Shown: positions 9,049 to 23,256 of the stretch, piece after piece
Numbering within the stretch: position 1 is the first letter of the stretch
Layout: each line of letters begins with the position of its first letter
Assembly (NCBI GenBank): GCA_028722305.1
Contig: JAQYHB010000011.1
Location: 1-64,000 of the forward strand
Source: Spirochaetales bacterium
GTDB lineage: Bacteria > Spirochaetota > Spirochaetia > Sphaerochaetales > Sphaerochaetaceae
DNA: 64,000 nt
Direction of reading: 5' to 3'
Position numbers and translations under genes: made by a program
The notes under the pieces: generated by a model
What the model saw: only the letters and a program-made list of their open reading frames with translations
The model's database searches: none
Told to the model about the DNA's origin: nothing

Positions 9049-9456
9049 ATGCTGTTCTGGAACAAGGACGAGGAAGGACATATTTGGGTTATCCTCGGAA
9101 AGCGGACGATCCATCATGGTCCGGGCTATCAGCAATGGTCCATTTCTGGTGGTGGCCATGAACACTACGATGATTCTCTTAAGGAAACGGCAATCAGAGA
9201 AGCAAGGGAAGAAATTGATATGGAGGTTCATGGCCCTGCAAGTGTCGGCTTCCTGTGCTCCTTGAGATTGCCCTTTATCTTCAGATTCGATGTGTTTGAA
9301 CACGAACGAAAGGAAAAAATTCCCATCAAATGGTTTTGTGAAGAGTTTTCAGATGTTCGGTGGTTCAGGGCAGACCAGCTACCGAGGGATGCGATGCTCC
9401 TTACGAGAATAGAAGTACATTCCTTACTGAAGAAACTGAAACATGTCGGAGCTTAA
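9049..9456 (+). CDS. NUDIX hydrolase, start codon uncertain
   Basis: At least 135 residues. The NUDIX box is GGGHEHYDDSLKETAIREAR followed by EEIDME; it is slightly off consensus (Asp for the first Glu, Asp for the closing Gly) but keeps the REAREE metal-binding core. NUDIX proteins hydrolyse nucleoside diphosphates linked to another moiety; the substrate is unknown. ATG 9049 is the first standard start, but the frame continues upstream with GKTKPYAGAG, which looks like the normal first beta strand. A good ribosome-binding site AAAGGA (8995-9000) precedes two ACG codons (9007, 9010). The true start may be an ACG or a mutated ATG. Confidence 0.75.
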   Translation: MLFWNKDEEGHIWVILGKRTIHHGPGYQQWSISGGGHEHYDDSLKETAIREAREEIDMEVHGPASVGFLCSLRLPFIFRFDVFEHERKEKIPIKWFCEEFSDVRWFRADQLPRDAMLLTRIEVHSLLKKLKHVGA

Positions 9457-9679
9457 TCTTTTTCAGGTCAGTTGAATATCTTAGGCTATTTTGAGCCACG
9501 TATCTGGCAAATTTGAAAGCCATCGTTCCGTTTGGAACTATGCCACTTGCAGAACATTCCTATTCTTTGGTTACGTGAACATTCCGGACTCCATGCCACC
9601 AGTGCCCGAGCTTTTGGAACCCTCCGTTCCGGCGAATAGAACACCAGCAATCCGGCACGGTAGAGCTGACGCAGACCGA
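9457..9679. other. Intergenic, between NUDIX gene and CRISPR array
   Basis: No gene, degenerate repeat or terminator is visible here. This is the leader-distal side if the array is transcribed leftward, as proposed. Confidence 0.4.
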
Positions 9680-9866
9680 GTCTTAATCCCTTTTTACAGG
9701 TCTATGTTTAGAAACTTTCCCCCATAAAGGAGATTACCAAATGAAGAAGATTATGTCTTAATCCCTTTTTACAGGTCTATGTTTAGAAACACGCGTTAGA
9801 CGCGGTAGCAAACGAGTGGGACTCCTACGCGTCTTAATCCCTTTTTACAGGTCTATGTTTAGAAAC
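9680..9866 (-). CRISPR. Short CRISPR array: three repeats, two spacers
   Basis: Three identical 36-bp repeats lie at 9680-9715, 9755-9790 and 9831-9866. Each reads GTCTTAATCCC at its plus-strand left end and TTTAGAAAC at its right end. Spacers are 39 bp (9716-9754) and 40 bp (9791-9830), typical lengths for type III. Leftward transcription is preferred: the AT-rich flank lies on the cas2 side, the cas genes run leftward, and the minus-strand repeat end (ATTAAGAC) would make an 8-nt crRNA 5' handle. With identical repeats there is no decayed terminal repeat to confirm this. Confidence 0.95.
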
Positions 9867-10069
9867 TCCACCCTTCATATCTTTCTATCAGGGAAGACAA
9901 TGCAAAGTGGTTCTCGCAACACTCATTGCTTCCGTTTGGAAAATATATAGGAAAAATTGCTCTCGCATCAACTACTACGTGTATCTTTTGCTCTACGAAC
10001 ATTTTACAAATCTCGCAACTCCTTCGCTAAGTTCATCAAAAATCTTATAAATCGAACCCTGCGAAAAAA
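9867..10069 (-). promoter_or_regulatory. Putative CRISPR leader between cas2 and the array
   Basis: About 200 bp, richer in A and T than the other flank, lying between the last cas2 gene and the first repeat. A 26-codon TTG-initiated frame (9993-10073) overlaps the cas2 stop by 4 nt, so part of this stretch might be coding. The call rests on position and composition only. Confidence 0.4.
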
Positions 10070-10354
10070 TCAAAGTATCTGATATTCTTTGGCGGGTTTA
10101 CCTCTTTTTGAACCTTTCCCTATATCAACAACCTTTGCTCTATCATCGACACAGAGAGGAATCATTGCGAAGCTATCCGTCTCCTTGTTGATTATATCAC
10201 AAGTATCCTTATACAATCCAAGTAATTCTGATTCCGTTCCTGTAACCTCGAACACTGACTTTTGTATCCGGTCGTTAAGAAATCCATCCAGTTTCTTGTA
10301 TATTGATTGGTAAGTCTTTGAGGCATGCACATCATATATAAACAACACAGTCAT
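10070..10354 (-). CDS. cas2: Second Cas2-family protein
   Basis: 94 residues, starting MTVLFIYDVHASK with the Asp that ends beta strand 1 in Cas2. RIQKSVFEVTGTESELLGL is the central Cas2 signature, and AMIPLCVDD is the later strand. It closes with a basic tail, GKGSKRGKPAKEYQIL. Cas2 bridges two Cas1 dimers during spacer integration. The gene lies 2 nt after another cas2 gene, and the two proteins are clearly different in sequence. The ATG at 10354 is chosen because the conserved strand starts there. Confidence 0.85.
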   Translation of the reverse strand: MTVLFIYDVHASKTYQSIYKKLDGFLNDRIQKSVFEVTGTESELLGLYKDTCDIINKETDSFAMIPLCVDDRAKVVDIGKGSKRGKPAKEYQIL

Positions 10355-10356
10355 TA

Positions 10357-10632
10357 TTACAACACCACATATTCGGGAAATAGAAACGACTGGCTTTGTC
10401 CTTCCGCTCGAATCTTTCCAAAACACTTATCGCAAATAGGATAGCATGACAACCGGTCTTCTTCCTGTTTAATTACCAGAGCTAGTTGCGTCAAAATCTG
10501 GTTGCAACGGGTTTCTGAGGCATCAAGGCAGAAAAAAGATTTTTGTGTTCGGATAGCATTCTCTTCGAGAATTCTTGCCACTTTATGAAGCCTTTTTTGC
10601 TCGCAGATATCATAACAGATGAGATATTTCAT
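10357..10632 (-). CDS. cas2: CRISPR-associated endonuclease Cas2
   Basis: 91 residues: MKYLICYDICEQKRLHKVAR with the strand-1 Asp, RTQKSFFCLDAS as the central strand, and CYPICDKCFGKIRAEG near the C-terminus. This is the usual Cas2 layout. It starts at the ATG at 10632, overlapping the cas1 stop in TGATG, so the two are translationally coupled. Cas1 and Cas2 together capture and integrate new spacers. It is unusual in being followed immediately by a second Cas2-family gene. Confidence 0.9.
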   Translation of the reverse strand: MKYLICYDICEQKRLHKVARILEENAIRTQKSFFCLDASETRCNQILTQLALVIKQEEDRLSCYPICDKCFGKIRAEGQSQSFLFPEYVVL

Positions 10633-11648
10633 CAAGTCACCACCAATGGATGATAATGATCGGTAAATCCTCCCAACACTTGCTTGTATTGCTGAATTTG
10701 CCGTTCCATAATACTTCGGTATGGCAGTGAAGAAGCGGAATCATTATACCGATGGGTCTGTGAAAGCTTGCTCTCAAACTGATCCAGGACCACCTTCATT
10801 GATTTTGGGCCAAGCAAGACCTTTTTATCCCCGCTCTCCACGTCTTTTTCCTCAGTAAAATCCGTCTTTTTGAGCATTCCCTGGTTAAACAATGCACATA
10901 CCGTTGTATCAACCAATGGGGTCCGATATTCTTCAACCAAATCGAATACCAACGACTTCCGTCCGTAACTCATCGCATGCAATGTGCCAACGGTATCATC
11001 CAATCCTTCCCGAAGCAACAAAGAGTCGATTTTGCAGGCAAGAACGGTATACAAGAAACTCAATACCGAATTCACTGGATCTCGAGGTGGGTTCTTGGTT
11101 CTTCTTTGGAACGAAACCCAATCCGGGAGTAAATTGACAGATAGCCCTTCGAAATACAACCGAGCAGCATTTCCTTCATATCCTCGGACTTCATCCACAT
11201 CTTTGGTATTGTCCAGTTTGTCCAAAATCCAAGAAATGCGTTCAACATTCTTGGTTAGAGATGGCTTGTTGAGCTTGCGCTGGATTTTCTGCAGATACAG
11301 CAATTCATTCTTCAGTTTTCCGCGAACTATGTCCTGCGCCATTGTGGCAATGAACTTACTATCCTCAGCAAGAACATGTTGCTTGTGCCGCAACAGAGTA
11401 TTCTGGTTATCCGAACCGATAAGCTTGCCGTTCCATTTACCATTTTTCTGCAAAAAGAACACAGGAATAGTTTGCTGAAGCAACAAATCGATAGCAGGTC
11501 CGGTCAATGACATATTCCCCAATACGATTATCAAATCGACCATACGAGGAGCGACTTTAACCCGAAGACCAGTATGGTCTTGGTAGATAAGAATATCTCC
11601 ATCTTTTTGCAAGATTCCGTTGTTCGACGTGATGTAGATAGTACTCAT
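10632..11648 (-). CDS. cas1: CRISPR-associated endonuclease Cas1
   Basis: 338 residues, the normal length. The N-terminal beta domain (MSTIYITSNNGILQKDGD) leads to the helical catalytic domain. Its metal ligands are expected in GYEGNAARLYFEGL (Glu), GTLHAMSYGRKSLVFD (His) and LVEEYRTPLVD (acidic). It is the integrase of the adaptation complex. No reverse transcriptase fusion is present. The start overlaps the CARF/HEPN gene stop by 4 nt. Confidence 0.96.
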   Translation of the reverse strand: MSTIYITSNNGILQKDGDILIYQDHTGLRVKVAPRMVDLIIVLGNMSLTGPAIDLLLQQTIPVFFLQKNGKWNGKLIGSDNQNTLLRHKQHVLAEDSKFIATMAQDIVRGKLKNELLYLQKIQRKLNKPSLTKNVERISWILDKLDNTKDVDEVRGYEGNAARLYFEGLSVNLLPDWVSFQRRTKNPPRDPVNSVLSFLYTVLACKIDSLLLREGLDDTVGTLHAMSYGRKSLVFDLVEEYRTPLVDTTVCALFNQGMLKKTDFTEEKDVESGDKKVLLGPKSMKVVLDQFESKLSQTHRYNDSASSLPYRSIMERQIQQYKQVLGGFTDHYHPLVVT

Positions 11649-13258
11649 GCCATCTTCTCGAGTATTTGCTCCAAATATTGATCAACATCATCTGCTATCT
11701 GATGGTAAGGCTTTGACGGAGTAGCTCCTTCTGGCAACAAAATCCAAAGGCAATCAGCAACTTTTTGAAGAAATTCTAGATAGTCTCCCCCACCCGCTGT
11801 ATCAATTTCTGCCTTAGAAATACCATCCATGCTGTGTGCAATTGGAGACTTGTTTCGCAGCTTTCGCAATTTCCTTACATTGTTTGCACTCTCATGAAAG
11901 AAATGATAAACAGTTTTCATCTTCTGAGAGGCAGTAGGCTGGTGGGCTGCCCAGTCAAAAAGATGGTACGGAGTCGGCCCATCAAACTCTCTGGGAGGAG
12001 CATTCTCCAAATCATCCTGGTTATTCTCCGTCCTCCACCTACTCAAAAGCTTGCGTTTGTGGTCTCTATCCATCCCGACAGTTTGTTTGAGCGATGGCAT
12101 CACCTCTCCTTGGACAAACCAATCCAATTCAGGATAACTACGGCTTGCATCGTTGTAGTACATCCGTGTATGCAGGATGAATCGCCCCGTTATGGAAGTC
12201 TGGAAGGCATCGAAAAAAGAGAAGAAAAAGCCAATGGAAAGATATAACCGTCCTTGGCTAAACTCGAACATGGCATTCTGCAACGTTTCAAACAGTAGAT
12301 AAGCGATTGCATCATTCATACAATCTAAGCCATCTCTACTTCCTGCCCCACAAGCAACAAACTGATCCAAGCCAAGCGAATATGGCTGGCACATTTCCCA
12401 GAGTATCTTATTCGCAGACTCCAACGCGGAGAGATCCTTCACCGCATCATCAAACAAATATGCACTACGATGAGAAAGGAAGGATACAAGAGCATCAAGG
12501 CCAGGAACCATCTCGAGCAAGATTGGAGAGTCCTTGAGAAATGTCTGGGCGGCAAGATATTCACCACGTTTCAGCAAATCTCTAAGCCCTTGTACCTTCA
12601 TGGACAATGAGTCGCGAGAGAACAAAGAAAGACGTTTGACCTTGCTCTTGTCCACCCCCTCTCCTCGTTTCCACGCTACATAGAACTGCGGGGCCAAGGG
12701 ATAAAAATCCGCACATGCTTTGGAAAGCGCATATCCCATAGCCGGAGTTGCCTGTGCAATCAGCACGACAGAAGGCTTGGCTTCCATCGCACCAACCGCT
12801 CCAACATAGAAATTGAGCATTTCCTGATAATCCGAAGGGTCAGCCTGAATAAGCATCTTAGTAAAACAAACACCAGGAAACTGCGCTTGACCGATAGGTC
12901 CAGACAGAATCTCAAACAATCCATCTGTGTCCTGCGTTGCATCTTTCTGGTCTTTCTGTTTTGTGCAAAAACAAACGATTTCCGTGATAGATTGGCTTAA
13001 TGCTTGTTCAAGCTGGTCAACACTTTGTTTGAGAATATGGAAAGATAACCGAGAAATAGTCCGATTCGTCTTCTCTCCGCTATCAAAAACTTGGAGCGGA
13101 GGATTCAGAGTTCCATCCGGAGCACATTCTCCATTCCAGCGTTTCAACCCAGAAATAACTGCGCCAACACGAATACAGAATTTTCCGCGTGTCCGGAACG
13201 TCCATCCAATATCATCCCAAACATCACTGTTTCCGAGATTCGTCAACAGGCGCATCAT
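11645..13258 (-). CDS. Csm6/Csx1-like CARF-HEPN ribonuclease
   Basis: 537 residues. The N-terminal third looks like a CARF ligand-binding Rossmann domain: it starts MMRLLTNLGNSD and contains VVLIAQATPAMGYALSKACA, resembling the G-T-P-x-M motif of Csm6 proteins. The C-terminus carries a HEPN ribonuclease motif, RNKSPIAH, with Arg468 and His475 (R-X6-H). Proteins of this type are switched on by cyclic oligoadenylate made by Cas10 and degrade RNA nonspecifically. The GGDD palm of the neighbouring csm1 is intact, which fits. The middle 250 residues have no recognisable motif. Genes on both sides overlap by 4 nt. Confidence 0.85.
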   Translation of the reverse strand: MMRLLTNLGNSDVWDDIGWTFRTRGKFCIRVGAVISGLKRWNGECAPDGTLNPPLQVFDSGEKTNRTISRLSFHILKQSVDQLEQALSQSITEIVCFCTKQKDQKDATQDTDGLFEILSGPIGQAQFPGVCFTKMLIQADPSDYQEMLNFYVGAVGAMEAKPSVVLIAQATPAMGYALSKACADFYPLAPQFYVAWKRGEGVDKSKVKRLSLFSRDSLSMKVQGLRDLLKRGEYLAAQTFLKDSPILLEMVPGLDALVSFLSHRSAYLFDDAVKDLSALESANKILWEMCQPYSLGLDQFVACGAGSRDGLDCMNDAIAYLLFETLQNAMFEFSQGRLYLSIGFFFSFFDAFQTSITGRFILHTRMYYNDASRSYPELDWFVQGEVMPSLKQTVGMDRDHKRKLLSRWRTENNQDDLENAPPREFDGPTPYHLFDWAAHQPTASQKMKTVYHFFHESANNVRKLRKLRNKSPIAHSMDGISKAEIDTAGGGDYLEFLQKVADCLWILLPEGATPSKPYHQIADDVDQYLEQILEKMA

Positions 13259-14307
13259 ACCTTTTGCTCCTTCATCATGCAGAACCCCGCCGGGTATCCA
13301 TTCTCAATCAAAACGAAGTGGTTTGTTCCCTCTCGGTTGATTTCGGGTTTCCAATAAAACTTTGGATTATCCACATTAAGTGTCATATTCTCGATGCCGG
13401 AATAATGCCCTAATCTGACAAAAAACTGGTTGTCTTTTTCTAAAGTTCCCATCACTTGAAGCAACTTCTCTTTCTCTTGATCGTGAAAATCATCACAGTG
13501 CGCAAATTTCCAACGTAAGTTCTGCGCATAGAAATCCTTTACAGCCTGCTTGATTTCCGGCATACGCAAATACTTGGGTGCCCTGGAATCAATGGATATG
13601 GATCCATCCGCGACAACCAATGGATTGAAGTCATGCAAGCAACCGGCATCAGTCATAGCGGAATATACGGGCACTTTCCCACCGGCATTTATACAACCGA
13701 TTACAGACTTGGAATTGCCCCGAATCTCAAAGTCTGAAATCTTTAGGAATTTGAATGGGTCCTCCTGCACTTTGAAACGGTCGGCCCCTGTCATCAGTTG
13801 CGCTTCAAACTCCTTTGCTTTTCCCAAAGGTTTCTTGTTGCTTTGTTTCCTCAACGATTCAAGGATGGCAGTACGCAAAGCCCCTTTCAGAGAAGAACCA
13901 GGGATATATGGCTTTCCCGTCAACGGCTTCGTCATATGTTGATTCACATCAAGCAATGGATTGGCACGAACCTTTTTTAACGCCGTGGGAAGAAACATGC
14001 ATGGACGCCTGCCGTACTCCTTAACAACTTTTCCGACGACTTCCTTTTGAAGAATCTCAAAAGCTTTGTTACGTGATTCATCATCATGATTTGAAGTTGC
14101 CCTGCACGCAAGCCGGTTCAATTCATCCACTTTCCTAATCGGCATGTTTTCAAGAATTTTCGGTATTTTCAACACCCATCCAGTCCCTCCTCCACTCACC
14201 CCATCACTGTATGGATACAGCTCGAACAATCCATAACTATCTCCGTTGTTGATAACGACAGGAGTCAAGATGCTAAGCTCAATCTTATATGTTTCGCTGG
14301 TTATCAT
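13255..14307 (-). CDS. csm5: Type III-A RAMP protein Csm5
   Basis: 350 residues from the ATG at 14307, which has TTGGAGGAG upstream; longer in-frame extensions lie inside csm4. Csm5 caps the crRNA 3' end of the Csm complex. The signatures are the early LSILTPVVINNGD strand, PYIPGSSLKGALRTAILESL (the RAMP glycine-rich helix) and FFVRLGHYSGIENMTL, typical of Csm5. The gene starts 2 nt after csm4 and overlaps the CARF/HEPN gene by 4 nt. Confidence 0.93.
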   Translation of the reverse strand: MITSETYKIELSILTPVVINNGDSYGLFELYPYSDGVSGGGTGWVLKIPKILENMPIRKVDELNRLACRATSNHDDESRNKAFEILQKEVVGKVVKEYGRRPCMFLPTALKKVRANPLLDVNQHMTKPLTGKPYIPGSSLKGALRTAILESLRKQSNKKPLGKAKEFEAQLMTGADRFKVQEDPFKFLKISDFEIRGNSKSVIGCINAGGKVPVYSAMTDAGCLHDFNPLVVADGSISIDSRAPKYLRMPEIKQAVKDFYAQNLRWKFAHCDDFHDQEKEKLLQVMGTLEKDNQFFVRLGHYSGIENMTLNVDNPKFYWKPEINREGTNHFVLIENGYPAGFCMMKEQKV

Positions 14308-14309
14308 GC

Positions 14310-15227
14310 TCACTCCTCCAAGGATATTGGCACAGGGAAAGCATAAGCATAGGTGCACACTTTTCCATTAGGATGCACGTCGCGCACAAGGTTTCCTTTC
14401 CCATTACGGAATGTGGCACCAAGCTCAAAACCAACAACCGGTTTTTTGTTGAACAAACCATTATCCGCCCTGCCGGTGATACCAGTATATGCGGTCACGG
14501 AATACGCAACCGCACCTTGCAACAAATCCTCTCCGGAGCAGCGAGATAAGGTCATAAACGGTTGTGGAGCCGTGCTATGGAATTTGAAAATCTGCTCCTC
14601 TTCTTCGTTGAGATCGACAAGCGAAACAGTACAGACACCACGGCCTACGTTTCTATTACCTCCAAGCCCAACAATACCGAAATATTCGCAGACCTTATGG
14701 AGCAGAGCAGTCATCTGCCTCACTTGGTCATCTCTGAAAGAGATGTAGGCTACAAGGGGATTCGCTGTCGTCACGTACCGCTCCGCATGCAAGGAACCAT
14801 CGTCTGCACGGAGCGTATTCCGATCAATCCGGACATGCTCTTCCACTTTTTCCCCTATTTTGGGGCCAGAAGAAAAGTCAAATGTACGAATTTGGTTCTG
14901 ATCTCGTTGCAAGACACAAAACTCATTGAGCGGAATCCACTTGCGTTTTTTATTTTGCTTTGCTTTTGCCCGGCTTTTACCATCAGCTACGACCTGTTTC
15001 ATGGGCGGATAGAAAGGAACAGGCATGAAGCCTTCCGGAATCGTAGCGGAAATCAGAAACGGTGGATTCTGGGAAAACTTTTCCATGAATTCATCTGCCT
15101 CATGCTCACCGTATAAATCAGAGATAGCCCAGACTATCTGGCCAAACAATTGGTCTGCCGTGGGGAGCGAGGAAAATGGTGTTGTGAACACAATCCGGAT
15201 TTTCTTATACGTCATACCGTCATTCAA
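14310..15227 (-). CDS. csm4: Type III-A RAMP protein Csm4
   Basis: 305 residues. It binds the crRNA 5' handle and Csm1 in the Csm complex. LPTADQLFGQIVWAISDLYG near the N-terminus is a Csm4 hallmark, and IVGLGGNRNVGRGVCTVSL is the glycine-rich loop. A TTG at 15227 overlaps the csm3 stop as TTGA; an in-frame ATG at 15215 is the alternative start. Neither has a strong ribosome-binding site, so coupling to csm3 is likely. Confidence 0.92.
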   Translation of the reverse strand: MNDGMTYKKIRIVFTTPFSSLPTADQLFGQIVWAISDLYGEHEADEFMEKFSQNPPFLISATIPEGFMPVPFYPPMKQVVADGKSRAKAKQNKKRKWIPLNEFCVLQRDQNQIRTFDFSSGPKIGEKVEEHVRIDRNTLRADDGSLHAERYVTTANPLVAYISFRDDQVRQMTALLHKVCEYFGIVGLGGNRNVGRGVCTVSLVDLNEEEEQIFKFHSTAPQPFMTLSRCSGEDLLQGAVAYSVTAYTGITGRADNGLFNKKPVVGFELGATFRNGKGNLVRDVHPNGKVCTYAYAFPVPISLEE

Positions 15228-15853
15228 CCATAAAAAGGCATGCCATCATAAAGTACGTTCTGCAGGGCCACTTTGCCATACCCACGGCTTCCGCTCCCCC
15301 CGAGAGCATCCGCCTCAAGGAGTTTGAACCCTTTTTTTATTAATGCACAGAACTTTTCTTCGTCATCACCATCAAACAGGCGTAGCGCAATGGAGAAATC
15401 AAAGATCAGTCCAGGAATGGCCCTTTCTGTCTGGCGGGGATTGTCAGCAACCCCTTTCAACCGATTAATGGAATTCTCACTTTTACTCTCGGTTGGAAGG
15501 ATGGACTTGTCCTGCAACCGTGCCTTCGATTCTTCCGATAGAAATGAATCACGAAACAAAATCCGGGTAATGGAGCCATTCTTAGACAAATCGCCGAACA
15601 CAACCGGAATCAAACTATCAGGATAATCGTCTTTTGTCGAAGGTTTTCCGTTCGTAGAGCCTTCATTCAGTTCAAGCAATGAGCGAATCTTTCCCTTCAA
15701 CGAGGAACCTGGAATATATGGATTGCCATTAGGGTCTTTCACGACCTCATTGTCGATTCCACCGATATGCACTTCTTCATTGCCAGCACCGATATGAAGA
15801 CCCGTAACAAGCTTGATACTCCCCGTGAATTCCTTAATCTGCATGGCGCTCAT
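15224..15853 (-). CDS. csm3: Type III-A RAMP backbone protein Csm3
   Basis: 209 residues. It forms the repeated backbone that cleaves target RNA at 6-nt steps. The catalytic Asp is in HIGGIDNEVVKDP (about residue 34), followed by NPYIPGSSLKGKIRSLLEL. The C-terminal glycine-rich loop is LGGSGSRGYGKVAL. The gene is intact, although csm2 just upstream has a stop in frame. ATGA overlap with the csm2 frame implies that csm3 translation was once coupled to full-length csm2. Confidence 0.95.
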   Translation of the reverse strand: MSAMQIKEFTGSIKLVTGLHIGAGNEEVHIGGIDNEVVKDPNGNPYIPGSSLKGKIRSLLELNEGSTNGKPSTKDDYPDSLIPVVFGDLSKNGSITRILFRDSFLSEESKARLQDKSILPTESKSENSINRLKGVADNPRQTERAIPGLIFDFSIALRLFDGDDEEKFCALIKKGFKLLEADALGGSGSRGYGKVALQNVLYDGMPFYG

Positions 15854-16293
15854 CTCCGCCCCCCTTGTCCATATCTGTAATTGTTGGACCTATACGATGA
15901 TTGTTGCTGCTTCCTTTCTTGCTTTTGTTCAAAGTCTTCAAATTCCGTATAGGCGATAACAGCTTGGTAAAACAACAAAAAATTCGAGAAGTCGTCAGAA
16001 GTCTCAATTTTCATGATGTAAGAAGAAATTTCTTCATAAAACAAAAAAGAAATATGGGCATCCTTACGAGAAGCCTTATATGCCAGTTTTGCCTTGGTGA
16101 AATGAACCTACGGAAGAATCTTTTTTTTGAAATCCTCTTCCGACATATTCGAGTTCTTCTCCTTCATTTGCAACAAGATCAAGTCGTCATAGAACTTTCG
16201 AATCTGGCTTGGTGTAGTCTTCCCATCATCCTTCAGACTTTTTGCCAACTGTTGTGGCTTTGTGGTCAACAAATCATCATTCAGCTCAATCAT
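15850..16293 (-). pseudogene. csm2: csm2 interrupted by an in-frame TAG
   Basis: The frame of 148 codons starts at ATG 16293 behind an excellent AGGAGG and reaches the csm3 overlap at 15850. Codon 62 is TAG (16108-16110). Before it the product reads MIELNDDLLTT to DFKKKILP; after it the same frame continues with VHFTKAKLAYKASRKD and ends in a Gln/Arg-rich tail. Together these look like one small alpha-helical Csm2 of normal length, the subunit that lines the target RNA groove. There is no frameshift: one base change would restore it. Options are a dead gene, readthrough, or two fragments. Other genes here use TAG as a normal stop. Confidence 0.85.
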
Positions 16294-18625
16294 GTATACC
16301 TCCTGATGCGTCTCTCGTCGCATCCAAAACATATTCCAGACAATGCTCGAACCGTCTCAACGCAGAAGCATCGGCGTATTCAAACCGTGCTTGGAAAAAT
16401 CTCACTGCATCAAGACGGCATTCCATAGAATCATCTTTGTCAAAGTTGCGTGCGATATCGTATCGCATCTTTCCGATACTGCTCCCCCTCCTTGCGGTAT
16501 CGCCTGACAATCGGTCTTTCACGTACCCAAGCATCCGATAGAGGAATGCCGTGGAAACCGGATACCGCGAATCAGTCAAATACGACTTCAACGTATCCTT
16601 ATCGGACATCAATTTGGCCAATTCTTCATAGGAGAACCTATCCCCCATAAAACACACACAGTTCCGTCCAAACGCTTCTTTCGCCATGACGTCAAGCGCA
16701 TCACCTGCATTCCGGTTTCCAAACGAGAAGGGAGCCTTGGCTCCTTGAATCGAAATGCCCACAGAAAAATGAAAGTCCGGATTCATGCAACAATACTTGG
16801 AAAAATCACTATGAAGTTGCTGCACAAGTGGCACAGCCTGATTCCATGGGGTAATCAGAAATACGTCATCACCACCTGTAATCACCGTGTAGACATCAGG
16901 GTAGGACTTCTCAAGCAACGAATGCAGGTACATATTAAAGAACATATGAAGTTGGCGTGACAAAGTCACATACCGGGATAAGGTATATGCGTCATCCGGC
17001 AAGCCATCGATAAAAATGTCCCCCAAATGATCGACATCTATTTTCACGTATGCCAACAAGGCTCTTCCTTGTCCCTCATCACTGACACCCATTCGTGCAA
17101 TCTCGGAGAATTCCTTGTGTGGAGTATATGCGTTCAAATGCCAGATTGGGAGAATTTCGGAACGCGAAGCATACATTGCGTACGCCACATGTCCTTGTTC
17201 CCCTTTTCCTTCAGCAAAAACGACATTGGAAAGCAATTGGAACCCACTGTCAGAAGCAGTTGTGACCGCGAGATGGAATTCCTTCATGTCTGGAATATGT
17301 CCACCGATTTGGCCTTCTTGCCTGCATTCGGTACAAAACCCATCCTCCGTATCGCTTGAACGAACACCACACGCAGGACATCTGGTTCCCTCAACGTTCA
17401 CATTAGAGAGAACGAAACCGGTTATGGGAAGCGCCCTTTCGAACTTGCGGGTCTTGCGCCCCATCAGCAAAGCCGATGATTCCGCAAGGGTTTTTCGGAA
17501 GGTCTTCGCTGAAAAACCATCCATCCCGATTTCTTGTGAGGCATCGATGACAATACATAACGTACCCAAGTATTTTTTCAGGAAGAAAACGTCCTGCTCT
17601 GTTTGATAGGCTTCAATCTGTTTCTCAATCCCGTCGAAATTCGGCAACAGCAATGTAAAGCGCCCACCAGCATCAATCATGTCGACGAAAGGAATAAGTC
17701 CAAGACGATCGCAAAGCCCTACTTGGTAGGCAGTACTCAGCAAGCTGATGATAAAGGAACGCCCTCTGAATGTCTTGCTTGCACCACGGAATGATTCTGA
17801 CTTGCTCTGAAAAATAAATTTCTGAATACCAGACAAGTCCCCAACGACAAGGCGAAACGGCTTTTGCGCATTCTCGCTATTCGCCATAGCCAATGCGATG
17901 GTCATAGTCATGACACTGTGGTCATAAAGAGAAATGTCGTTCAATCCATCATTAGTTGCCGATGGAATGCACCAGCAATAGGTAAACAACAAATCTTTCA
18001 GCTTACGCACCAGCATCTGGCATGATATCTTCCCTTGTAAAGAAGACAAGCTTTCCTTAAACGCTCTCCAAAGGTTGTGATAATCAGGTGCCTCTTCCAA
18101 ATTCTGGGAAGGAAACATCACATCCTGCCCCTCGATAAAAGGACGCATCGCGTATACCCATGTCGATTTGGTACTTGTATGCCGCTGGTTCGGCCTGACA
18201 TTCGGGAAAACAGCACGTAGGGGGGTCTTCAAGTAAGCATCCTTAGCCAAACCGATTTCCTTTTCGACACGATCCGCACCTGCGCTTAGTCGGTCTCCCA
18301 TGGCTACAAAATGAGAATACCCATCCGAAGAGGGATTGTGATGCATGGCGCTTTCTCGGGCAACCAGTTCCCAATCGATAGACAAATCAAGATCAAGTTG
18401 TCTGATGATAGGGAAAAAGTCTTCCAAGAAGAAACCATATGTCCAAAGTGCGTGACGGTAGGTATATCGGGCGTCCATTGAAGTCGGAAGCAACTGCCCC
18501 TCCATGGACACTACATCTCGCGACAGAGATTTCTCGTCCCCTCCAAAAGCACGTTGCTTGAATTTGCCCAAATCATGGCAAAGAGCCGCAATTGCTAGTT
18601 CATATTGTTTCTTTGTTTCAAGCAT
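16286..18625 (-). CDS. csm1: Cas10/Csm1, type III-A large subunit
   Basis: 779 residues. The N-terminal HD nuclease motif is in IAALCHDLGKFKQRAF (His17, Asp18). A zinc-ribbon CPACGVRSSDTEDGFCTEC lies near residues 414-432. The palm domain has VITGGDDVFLI with GGDD at 584-587. Both the single-stranded DNase and cyclic oligoadenylate synthase activities should therefore be possible. The C-terminal helical domain 4 is present. The gene overlaps cas6 by 8 nt and csm2 by 8 nt. Confidence 0.96.
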   Translation of the reverse strand: MLETKKQYELAIAALCHDLGKFKQRAFGGDEKSLSRDVVSMEGQLLPTSMDARYTYRHALWTYGFFLEDFFPIIRQLDLDLSIDWELVARESAMHHNPSSDGYSHFVAMGDRLSAGADRVEKEIGLAKDAYLKTPLRAVFPNVRPNQRHTSTKSTWVYAMRPFIEGQDVMFPSQNLEEAPDYHNLWRAFKESLSSLQGKISCQMLVRKLKDLLFTYCWCIPSATNDGLNDISLYDHSVMTMTIALAMANSENAQKPFRLVVGDLSGIQKFIFQSKSESFRGASKTFRGRSFIISLLSTAYQVGLCDRLGLIPFVDMIDAGGRFTLLLPNFDGIEKQIEAYQTEQDVFFLKKYLGTLCIVIDASQEIGMDGFSAKTFRKTLAESSALLMGRKTRKFERALPITGFVLSNVNVEGTRCPACGVRSSDTEDGFCTECRQEGQIGGHIPDMKEFHLAVTTASDSGFQLLSNVVFAEGKGEQGHVAYAMYASRSEILPIWHLNAYTPHKEFSEIARMGVSDEGQGRALLAYVKIDVDHLGDIFIDGLPDDAYTLSRYVTLSRQLHMFFNMYLHSLLEKSYPDVYTVITGGDDVFLITPWNQAVPLVQQLHSDFSKYCCMNPDFHFSVGISIQGAKAPFSFGNRNAGDALDVMAKEAFGRNCVCFMGDRFSYEELAKLMSDKDTLKSYLTDSRYPVSTAFLYRMLGYVKDRLSGDTARRGSSIGKMRYDIARNFDKDDSMECRLDAVRFFQARFEYADASALRRFEHCLEYVLDATRDASGGIHD

Positions 18626-19511
18626 TTATTCGCCCCTCTTCAATCTTATACCGACCCAGCCCAAAACTAACGTTCTTGCCGACATGGAACAAAAGTCCAC
18701 CTGCAAGCAAGGCTATGGTCTCTTTGGAAAAAGGTCCTTTCAACAGTAACCGGCCCTTCACTCCACCTAGTTGCATTGCTGTTTTCTGGCGCGATGAATA
18801 ATAGTCCTGATCCACCCATCTTTGCCCAAATGCATAAGAAACAGGATATTGTTCCACTGGCGAAATCGAATAATCGTCACCGTACAGTGATTCCAAAATT
18901 TCCATACGTCTGCTACATGCAACAAGAAGTTGTTTCCCAGTCACGCATGTGAGATACCGTCCATTTTCCTGAAGCCTGAATGGTGTCTCAAATGTAACAA
19001 GCAAGAATGGAACATCCAGAACTTGTATGGAAGCATCCGGCCATGTACGGCTTTTCGCTTCCAAGCTATTCAGTGAAAAAGCATACGGCTTTCCTTCAAG
19101 CACGACAGCTTCAATCTGAAATGGAACACGGTCAAAGGAGATGCCTTTTTCTCCAGCACGTTCCAAAGCTGTCGTCACATAGGGAATAAAATTACGGCTT
19201 TTTCCAATAAAAACAATAGACAACCTTGCGTGGTACGCATCGATTTCATCGTATTCGATCACAAACGGATGCGACGCTCGATTACGCCCTGGCAAGACTT
19301 TTGTATCTGCGGAAATGTATGATTCGAAGAACCAAGCATACACGCAAGTCTCTCGAAGCGGACAGGAGGCACAGCTTTCCTGTTCTCGTAACACGCAACA
19401 CAAGCGTCGAAACTGCATGCCAAGGACACTGCGGAACACAGTTTCGGCAGGATATCTCCATAAAACTTGCCTATCATAACGCAACAGATATTCAAGTTTT
19501 ATGTATTTCAT
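18618..19511 (-). CDS. cas6: CRISPR repeat endoribonuclease Cas6
   Basis: 297 residues from ATG 19511 with AGGAAAG upstream. Two RAMP-like halves end in LAGGLLFHVGKNVSFGLGRY, the glycine-rich Cas6 signature. A cysteine cluster (CASCPLRETCVYAWFFES) near residue 60 is common in this Cas6 branch. It cuts pre-crRNA within repeats to leave the 8-nt 5' handle. It is the first gene of the operon, so crRNA processing and interference genes are transcribed together. Confidence 0.93.
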   Translation of the reverse strand: MKYIKLEYLLRYDRQVLWRYPAETVFRSVLGMQFRRLCCVLREQESCASCPLRETCVYAWFFESYISADTKVLPGRNRASHPFVIEYDEIDAYHARLSIVFIGKSRNFIPYVTTALERAGEKGISFDRVPFQIEAVVLEGKPYAFSLNSLEAKSRTWPDASIQVLDVPFLLVTFETPFRLQENGRYLTCVTGKQLLVACSRRMEILESLYGDDYSISPVEQYPVSYAFGQRWVDQDYYSSRQKTAMQLGGVKGRLLLKGPFSKETIALLAGGLLFHVGKNVSFGLGRYKIEEGRINA

Positions 19512-19545
19512 CGGCAACTTTCCTAAATTACAACGAATGTTAATT

Positions 19546-19573
19546 ATTGTACACCTTCTTTTATTTGAAGCAA
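19546..19573 (-). promoter_or_regulatory. Promoter of the cas operon
   Basis: Minus-strand TTGCTT (19568-19573), 16-bp spacer, TACAAT (19546-19551), about 35 nt before the cas6 ATG. All cas genes to 10070 overlap or nearly abut, so this probably drives the whole operon. Confidence 0.5.
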
Positions 19574-19586
19574 GGAAAACAAACAC

Positions 19587-19930
19587 CGATTAATACTATT
19601 GTTCCGTTAGCTGGACAATGATTTTTCATATTAAACAAGTATAGAGAAAAAAGACAAAAAGGACCTGCGATATGTTGATTCAACAATACACAACTCAACG
19701 ATAAGCCGGATACGTTATTGAAGAAACGCTTGCTGGATCCTCTTTATTTGGCTACCTCAAATAGTCTTCCTGGGGTGATTCCACCTCGAAGATACATCCT
19801 CCCTGTACTCAGATTCGAGACCTACGAATACAAAGGGGGAAAGTCTGTCTGCGCATCAGCCAACCTACTGCGATGCCATCTCATGTACGTTGGCTTCCTT
19901 TGCTCTCTATGGGAAGATTGCCTAGAACCA
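19587..19930. other. Non-coding stretch beside the CRISPR operon
   Basis: About 340 bp without a recognisable gene. A plus-strand frame from 19718 lacks a ribosome-binding site and family resemblance. The right end merges into the decayed 3' end of the racemase pseudogene. Confidence 0.35.
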
Positions 19931-19934
19931 TGTC

Positions 19935-20610
19935 GCTCAGGACCTAGATATGTATGGACATCGTGTCGAGAATCGGTACGGAGAATTATACTCCTTGAAA
20001 CGCGAAGGGGAGTTCTGTGCAACCGATGACGATGCCATCAATTCCCTCCGCGTCTTTCAGATGCTGGATGATTCGTAGGATTCCTTTCCTGGTTTCTTCT
20101 TTTATGATTCCCAGTTCGAGTTCAGAGGAAATCTTTTCGTGGATATAGGTCATTTCCTCTTCATTGGGCGTAACCATGGTGATATAGGCGTGCAGGAACG
20201 GGGCCTTGAAAAAGTCATTCCCCATTGCCACTGCTGTTCCTAACAGGCCGAGCTATGGTATCCGGTTCGTTGGGTGGCCCTGCAGGCGGCTTCCAGCATG
20301 CAGGCCAAGGGAATCGGTGACCGGCTTTGCAAGTTGTCGAAGACGATGTGGGGAGTTTTGCCCGTCATCGCCACGAAATCATAGCCAACTTTGGCAAGGT
20401 TGCTGATTTCCTCGGAAAAATACTGGACCAGTCCGCCATAGTCTTTCTGCCCGCAATAGCGCAACATCTGAAAGACATCCATGCTTTCAGATCCGGAAAC
20501 AGATTTTCCCGAACTTCTTCTATACGCCGAAGACGATTTATAGTACGGAATGGCGGATTCTAGTCCAAAACCACCAATCAAACCAAGCTCTCTCTTTTTG
20601 ACGGCCTCTG
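19935..20610 (-). pseudogene. Aspartate/glutamate racemase family pseudogene
   Basis: The family is clear from LGLIGGFGLESAIPYYK, DVFQMLRYCGQKDYGGLV, TGKTPHIVFDNLQSRSPIPL, and then, in another frame, GLLGTAVAMGNDFF and IVIGCTELPFAFQG. The frame is lost near 20250 by the equivalent of a one-base deletion. The C-terminus SVPILDTMSIHI follows an in-frame TAA and is itself cut by TAG. A start codon is not evident before KKRELGLIGG. With a frameshift and two nonsense codons this gene is dead. It would have made D-amino acids. Confidence 0.88.
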
Positions 20611-21111
20611 TTGATGATTCGAAATGACATATGCGAAGAAAGTCTGACAGCCTTGGACGATGTCATTCCATGCCGCCTCGAAGTCACGGGTATACCACGG
20701 GTCGGCGACGTCCCTTCCGCTTCCCGCTACAAGGGTGCCGGACTTTCTCCATTCCACGAAGTCCATCAACCCATAGATTTTTCCTTCCAAGTCTCCACCG
20801 GCGATACGGCGCATGTCGCACAGGTTCTCGTCATCCATGCCAACCAGATAGTCGAAAAGGCGATAATCCCCTCTCGTCATCAGTCGGGCCCGTTTCCCTG
20901 CGGGGTTGATGCCATGACGAAGCAACACCTCCCTCGCCGGCGGATAGACCGGATTTCCCCTTCCGTTCCAGATTTCTTCGCTCGTGGTGGCCGCGGACTC
21001 AATGTGGAATTGGTCGGCAATCCCCTCTTTCAAGACCAAATCCTTACAGAAGAACTCCGCCATCGGTGAGCGGCAGATGTTGCCGTGGCAGACAAAGAGA
21101 ATCTTGGTCAT
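20578..21111 (-). CDS. Low-molecular-weight protein-tyrosine phosphatase
   Basis: 177 residues from ATG 21111 with AAGGAG 7 nt upstream. The P-loop ILFVCHGNICRSPMAEF holds the nucleophile Cys and Arg, and DVADPWYTRDFEAAW has the general acid Asp followed by the tyrosine. The sequence resembles the Firmicutes/spirochaete YfkJ-type single-domain enzymes rather than exopolysaccharide Wzb, and no polysaccharide genes are nearby. Its last codons overlap the racemase pseudogene region. In-frame codons upstream to 21216 lack a motif and are not used. Confidence 0.92.
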   Translation of the reverse strand: MTKILFVCHGNICRSPMAEFFCKDLVLKEGIADQFHIESAATTSEEIWNGRGNPVYPPAREVLLRHGINPAGKRARLMTRGDYRLFDYLVGMDDENLCDMRRIAGGDLEGKIYGLMDFVEWRKSGTLVAGSGRDVADPWYTRDFEAAWNDIVQGCQTFFAYVISNHQQRPSKRESLV

Positions 21112-22791: not shown

Positions 22792-22849
22792 CCTGGAAGC
22801 TTCAGTTTCTCCTTGGAAACAGAGCGAAACCTTCCAGGTCTTTCTCGCA

Positions 22850-23256
22850 CGATTGGCGAGATGAAAAAGGCTCTGTCCACAAGCGTTTCATCCAATGCCG
22901 ACATCGCGAAGAACGCGTCGATGCTGTTGGCAATCAAGACGAGGCGGAGAATTCCTTCTTTGCTTCTCACGGTGTCCGCAAGCGATAGTCGAAGCCGATG
23001 ACTTCGCTCTTCGGAAAGAGCGTCTTGTACTGGTCGGTTTCCTTCGCCGAACCACCCTTTCCGTGAAGATAGATGATTGATTCATCCATTTCCGGCATCT
23101 CATACGCTTCAGCGCGATGATAGTCCAGTATTCCCTGCTTGCACGTATAGTGCCCTTTGTGATTCGTAATTGTTTTGCGATGTCGCTCATGGATGTTCCC
23201 AGGTATCCATCCACCCTGCGCAAGATGCGTTCTTTTGTATCTCCTCATCACAAGCA
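22850..23256 (-). pseudogene. Decayed TetR regulator joined to alpha/beta-hydrolase remnant
   Basis: Reading right to left on the minus strand, KERILR and GYLGTSMSDIAKQLRITKG (23120-23240) are a TetR helix-turn-helix with the usual helix between them shortened. After a frame change, YTCKQGILDY gives its next helix. The frame then reads straight into DESIIYLHGKGGSAKETDQYK and VIGFDYRLRTP, the start of a small alpha/beta hydrolase. After another frame change, LVLIANSIDAFFAMSALDE to AFFISPIVRERPG follows. The nucleophile elbow has Asp where Gly is expected (NSIDA). Segments are missing, so this is a wreck of two genes, not a fusion protein. Confidence 0.72.

Follow-up and report, generated by a model that had tools for sequence, protein, structure and literature searches.

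Type III-A CRISPR loci disabled by single mutations are known from the laboratory, and comparable lesions are known from natural isolates of other CRISPR systems. Jiang et al. (2013) described S. epidermidis escapers in which cas10 or cas6 carried nonsense mutations, and cas10, csm2, csm4, csm6 or cas6 frameshifts, and put the inactivation rate at 1e-4 to 1e-3 per cell per generation (PMC3784566). The csy2 gene of E. coli UTI89 carries a natural TAG (PMC3784566), and a potential csm6 frameshift is found in most S. lugdunensis CC1 strains (PMC6834553). When Csm2 is removed in vivo, interference in both S. epidermidis and L. lactis falls to background, with the caveat that Csm5 is also lost from the complex (PMC10289348, PMC8964682). 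An S. thermophilus complex lacking Csm2 kept its critical activities in vitro, according to a study as cited in PMC10289348.

Here, we analysed a 64 000 nt stretch of a Spirochaetales genome (contig JAQYHB010000011.1, hereafter the window), which contains a type III-A locus whose csm2 gene is interrupted by an in-frame TAG (Table 1). The S. epidermidis RP62a escapers are a close parallel, being type III-A systems that a single nonsense or frameshift mutation, in csm2 among other genes, has disabled; however, they were selected in the laboratory, and their csm2 lesion is a one-base deletion rather than the TAG of the window (PMC3784566). E. coli UTI89 csy2 is similar in another respect, as a natural isolate with one in-frame TAG in an effector subunit gene and the remaining locus present (PMC3784566). 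Unlike the III-A locus of the window, the UTI89 system is type I-F, and it has a spacer matching a resident plasmid and other strains with an intact copy, whereas no target and no sister strain are known for the window.

Table 1. Features of the type III-A locus and its surroundings, in window coordinates
Feature	Position	Strand	Remarks
Island, 11.2 kb	9450..20626		Not in congener G002 at the same site
CRISPR array	9680..9866		Three identical 36-nt repeats, two spacers (39 and 40 nt)
Second cas2-like gene	10070..10375	minus	
cas2, first copy	10357..10635	minus	
cas1	10632..11648	minus	Intact
Csx1/Csm6-type effector (CARF-HEPN)	11645..13258	minus	Intact
csm5	13255..14358	minus	Intact; true start probably further in
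csm4	14310..15227	minus	Intact
csm3	15224..15853	minus	Intact; ATG overlaps csm2 TGA
csm2	16293-15850	minus	147 codons, single internal TAG
csm2, C-terminal part	15850..16107	minus	Codons 63-147 and TGA; no ATG/GTG/TTG before codon 84; translation, Pfam match
csm2, premature in-frame TAG	16110-16108	minus	Codon 62, inside predicted helix 3 (residues 52-75); translation, read-through match, model
csm2, N-terminal part	16111..16293	minus	Codons 1-61 (helices 1-2 and start of helix 3); translation, Pfam match, model
csm1/cas10	16286..18625	minus	Intact; HD (H17/D18) and GGDD (584-587)
cas6	18618..19586	minus	Intact
Asp/Glu racemase pseudogene	19986-20581	minus	Frameshift and further stops; upstream of cas6, between it and phosphatase gene, inside island

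The NCBIfam models scored Csm1 at 497 bits, Csm3 at 191, Csm4 at 111 and Csm5 at 48, all above cut-off. The gene set that defines type III-A (Cas10/Csm1 with Csm2, Csm3, Csm4 and Csm5) is present, with Csm2 counted as read through, and a CRISPR array lies beside the operon. No single uninterrupted frame encodes a complete small subunit, and because of the TAG at codon 62 we regard the locus as III-A by descent and doubtful in function. The initial annotation, made from the sequence alone, had described the operon as otherwise complete; the neighbouring genes are indeed all open, but the array has just three repeats, and a second cas2 had gone unlisted. Tandem cas2 pairs also occur in the genomes G122, G123 and G045, so the pairing of two different Cas2 proteins may be maintained.

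The minus-strand translation of csm2 runs for 61 codons to the TAG and for a further 85 codons to the TGA. The N-terminal half matches columns 5-54 of the Pfam family Csm2_III-A (24.1 bits) and the C-terminal half columns 58-111 (30.3 bits), while the joined product, whose alignment to the family had been proposed as a check, reaches 63.3 bits against a cut-off of 24.8. Homologues align without gaps at the stop (window, ILP*VHFTKAKLAY; G061, ILPLIKFSKIKIAY; G254, LLPRIQFVRAKIAY), so the frame is unbroken and the lesion is one nonsense codon. A run of eight A residues lies about ten bases upstream of the TAG, and a frameshift hidden in it was considered and rejected because the alignment is gapless across the run. 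Identity to G254 is 40% before the stop and 41% after it, and the closest Csm2 homologue is <50% identical to the window protein. The two parts are one Csm2, in agreement with the earlier view of a single frame before and after codon 62. The residue at the codon 62 site varies among homologues within a conserved helix, so the site itself is not invariant. There is no second csm2 copy elsewhere in the genome. The gene has the features of a nonsense pseudogene, with a stop that lies within the conserved domain and is missing from the homologues, and a remaining frame that is still recognizable.

An AlphaFold2 model of the read-through Csm2, built with seven homologues, has five helices (mean pLDDT 92), with codon 62 in the middle of helix 3. 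The best 27 Foldseek matches in the PDB were all Csm2 chains of Csm complexes, of Csm2-like lengths, with probabilities of 0.60-1.00 and weak E-values, none <0.001. By sequence profile, 5an6, a Csm2 structure, is the closest solved relative (E 1.6e-15). On this model, the 61-residue peptide ending at the TAG would retain helices 1-2 and with them the conserved Q-I/L-R segment, but would lack the bundle.

A survey took in 139 genomes from the family of the window genome and 395 from its class, and found Csm2 in seven family and 17 class genomes (20 distinct, the window included). The internal csm2 stop is confined to the window (0/19 other family or class loci), and neither the six others in the family nor the 16 others in the class have a split or interrupted csm2. 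Among named genomes, a first scan with Csm1 alone returned none, and an alignment of Csm1 used as query gave 39 loci; the Csm2 profile matched 35 of these, two of them in the same genomes as G122 and G061, and none of the 35 is interrupted or split. On plasmids, Csm1 found distant matches only (<30% identity among the matches listed). The initial annotation had named, as grounds for abandoning its reading, homologues that normally carry each half in a gene of its own. None was encountered in the class (0/16), the family (0/6) or the named set (0/35), and a Csm2 naturally split into two genes was seen in none of about 50 loci.

These comparisons bear on whether the halves are translated separately and come together as a split Csm2, an explanation we find barely credible. 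Both halves are open and in frame, as it would require, but the stop cuts helix 3 of the model and not a loop, and no homologue is split. The first ATG, GTG or TTG after the stop is a TTG at codon 84, beyond the conserved KxxLAYxxxR segment; the next start, an ATG at codon 94, is also past the conserved helix-3 segment, and no clear Shine-Dalgarno sequence precedes either codon. As all the usual start codons after the TAG lie beyond the conserved helix-3 segment, a two-piece Csm2 is unlikely, and a split gene with re-initiation was rejected on the late start codons and the position of the stop inside helix 3.

The closest named relatives are Spirochaetia bacterium INTA.AUR.017 (G122) and Bullifex porci (G061), spirochaetes that match genomes assigned to the family of the window genome, which on its own would make a spirochaete host very probable. 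These two genomes and G123 have the gene order of the window, cas6-csm1-csm2-csm3-csm4-csm5-effector-cas1-cas2, with identities to the window of about 40% for Csm1 and Csm2, 60% for Csm3 and 25-30% for the effector. All three have an intact csm2, in contrast to the TAG-bearing gene of the window, and their arrays have 32 (G122), 23 (G123) and 11 (G061) repeats, compared with three. Damaged csm1 genes were found in at least two further genomes of the class, from other species. In G392 (locus L068), csm1 has an in-frame TAG right after the HD motif (HDVGKFA*RAE) and is otherwise open, and in G250 (L073 and L084) a frameshift divides csm1 into two open frames. Broken csm1 genes in two of the 16 other class genomes with csm2 show that lesions of this kind are no rarity in the assemblies examined.

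A stop can also be bypassed, and we searched the genome for the means to do so. The release factor gene prfA (RF1) is present and intact (509 bits), and the best match to the PylS model scored 26.5 bits against a cut-off of 178. None of the 38 tRNAs listed, from a search of at most 100 initial candidates, has the anticodon CUA, although some expected tRNAs are absent from that list. The codon TAG terminates two of the 23 open frames of the window whose ends could be checked against G002, a genome of the same genus that is 86-89% identical in this region. With RF1 present and neither PylS nor a CUA tRNA found, stop-codon recoding is unlikely, and the earlier argument against general recoding, that TAG ends ordinary genes of the window, holds on each of these counts. 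Pyrrolysine or another suppressor was rejected on the lack of a PylS above cut-off and of a CUA tRNA among those listed. It is very unlikely that a near-cognate tRNA or an undetected suppressor bypasses the TAG often enough to supply full-length Csm2. Both halves have been kept and match the family equally well (40 and 41% to G254), and a suppressor tRNA could escape a search of an assembly that is about 95% complete; against this stand the same RF1, PylS and tRNA results, and a stop that is common to no relative examined. As about 5% of the genome is missing and some tRNAs were unseen, we place a suppressor tRNA at unlikely. That TAG read-through at a useful rate sets the dose of Csm2, and hence type III-A interference, in this bacterium is more doubtful still.

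The main rival to nonsense inactivation is a sequencing or assembly error, in which case the organism would have a sense codon at 16108-16110. The entire lesion is one substitution, all other csm and cas genes of the operon are open and the genome is a draft of 56 contigs, all of which would suit an error. Nevertheless, we consider an error improbable. Substitution errors are rare in a polished consensus, and csm2 keeps its frame across the neighbouring 8-A run, the place where indel errors should appear before anywhere else. The genes common to the window genome and G002 are mostly unbroken, so errors are not widespread in the assembly. Other genes of the window were also compared with G002 for in-frame stops; most of these fall in antisense or over-extended open frames and are not lesions.

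The locus lies within an island with a G+C content of 45%, compared with 53% for the window. In G002, the counterpart of window position 9449 is followed by 29 bases and then by the counterpart of 20627. The lower G+C content favours gain of the island in one lineage rather than loss in the other. A sequence on the left edge of the island (9452-9476) may be a degenerate CRISPR repeat; it is the best match to the repeat in the window outside the array, with a score reached by one of 2000 shuffles. The gap left in G002 where the island would sit resembles nine repeat bases; shuffles often reach that score, so we make no claim of a former locus in G002. Beyond the island, a gene remnant on the minus strand (22848-23244) has an in-frame TGA and a frame change, and its counterpart in G002 is longer.

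The genome has no other array with the repeat of the window array. Neither of the two spacers has a second match in the genome at up to three mismatches, and the spacer cores gave zero exact matches to viral contigs. Self-targeting spacers were rejected as a cause of loss on the genome result, so we found no self-targeting pressure that would have favoured it.

Taken together, we consider it probable that a recent nonsense mutation in csm2 abolished or much reduced interference. The initial annotation had offered three readings, of which recent loss by one mutation is favoured; bypass of the stop and two working pieces are unlikely, with no recoding machinery and no split homologue found. We infer that the organism itself has this base, that the function has been lost and that the loss is recent. 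Translation of the Csm small subunit would stop at the TAG, within helix 3, leaving at most a 61-residue peptide unable to form the helix bundle. A Csm complex without Csm2 would have no small-subunit ridge, and target-RNA cutting and interference would be lost or much reduced as a result. The mutation would be too young for the other genes of the locus to have been interrupted as well. Through translational coupling, csm3 may also suffer a polar effect, since the csm2 stop overlaps the csm3 start.

By analogy with S. epidermidis and L. lactis, where removal of Csm2 brings interference down to background, the likely effect here is that interference is lost or strongly reduced, and the in vitro activity of the S. 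thermophilus complex suggests that the loss may be partial. The three-repeat array, the broken racemase gene in the island and the broken csm1 genes of G392 and G250 support recent loss, whereas the spacers without a match in their own genome, the 56-contig draft and the in vitro activity without Csm2 elsewhere count against it.

The locus would have nothing new to say about how type III-A systems work unless bypass of the stop were demonstrated. The csm2 lesion is most likely an ordinary loss of function, for which other CRISPR systems offer documented precedents. It agrees with the picture in the literature of CRISPR loci as labile and lost via ordinary mutation, and adds one more natural locus apparently caught early in decay, with one required subunit hit, the array nearly empty and the rest still open.
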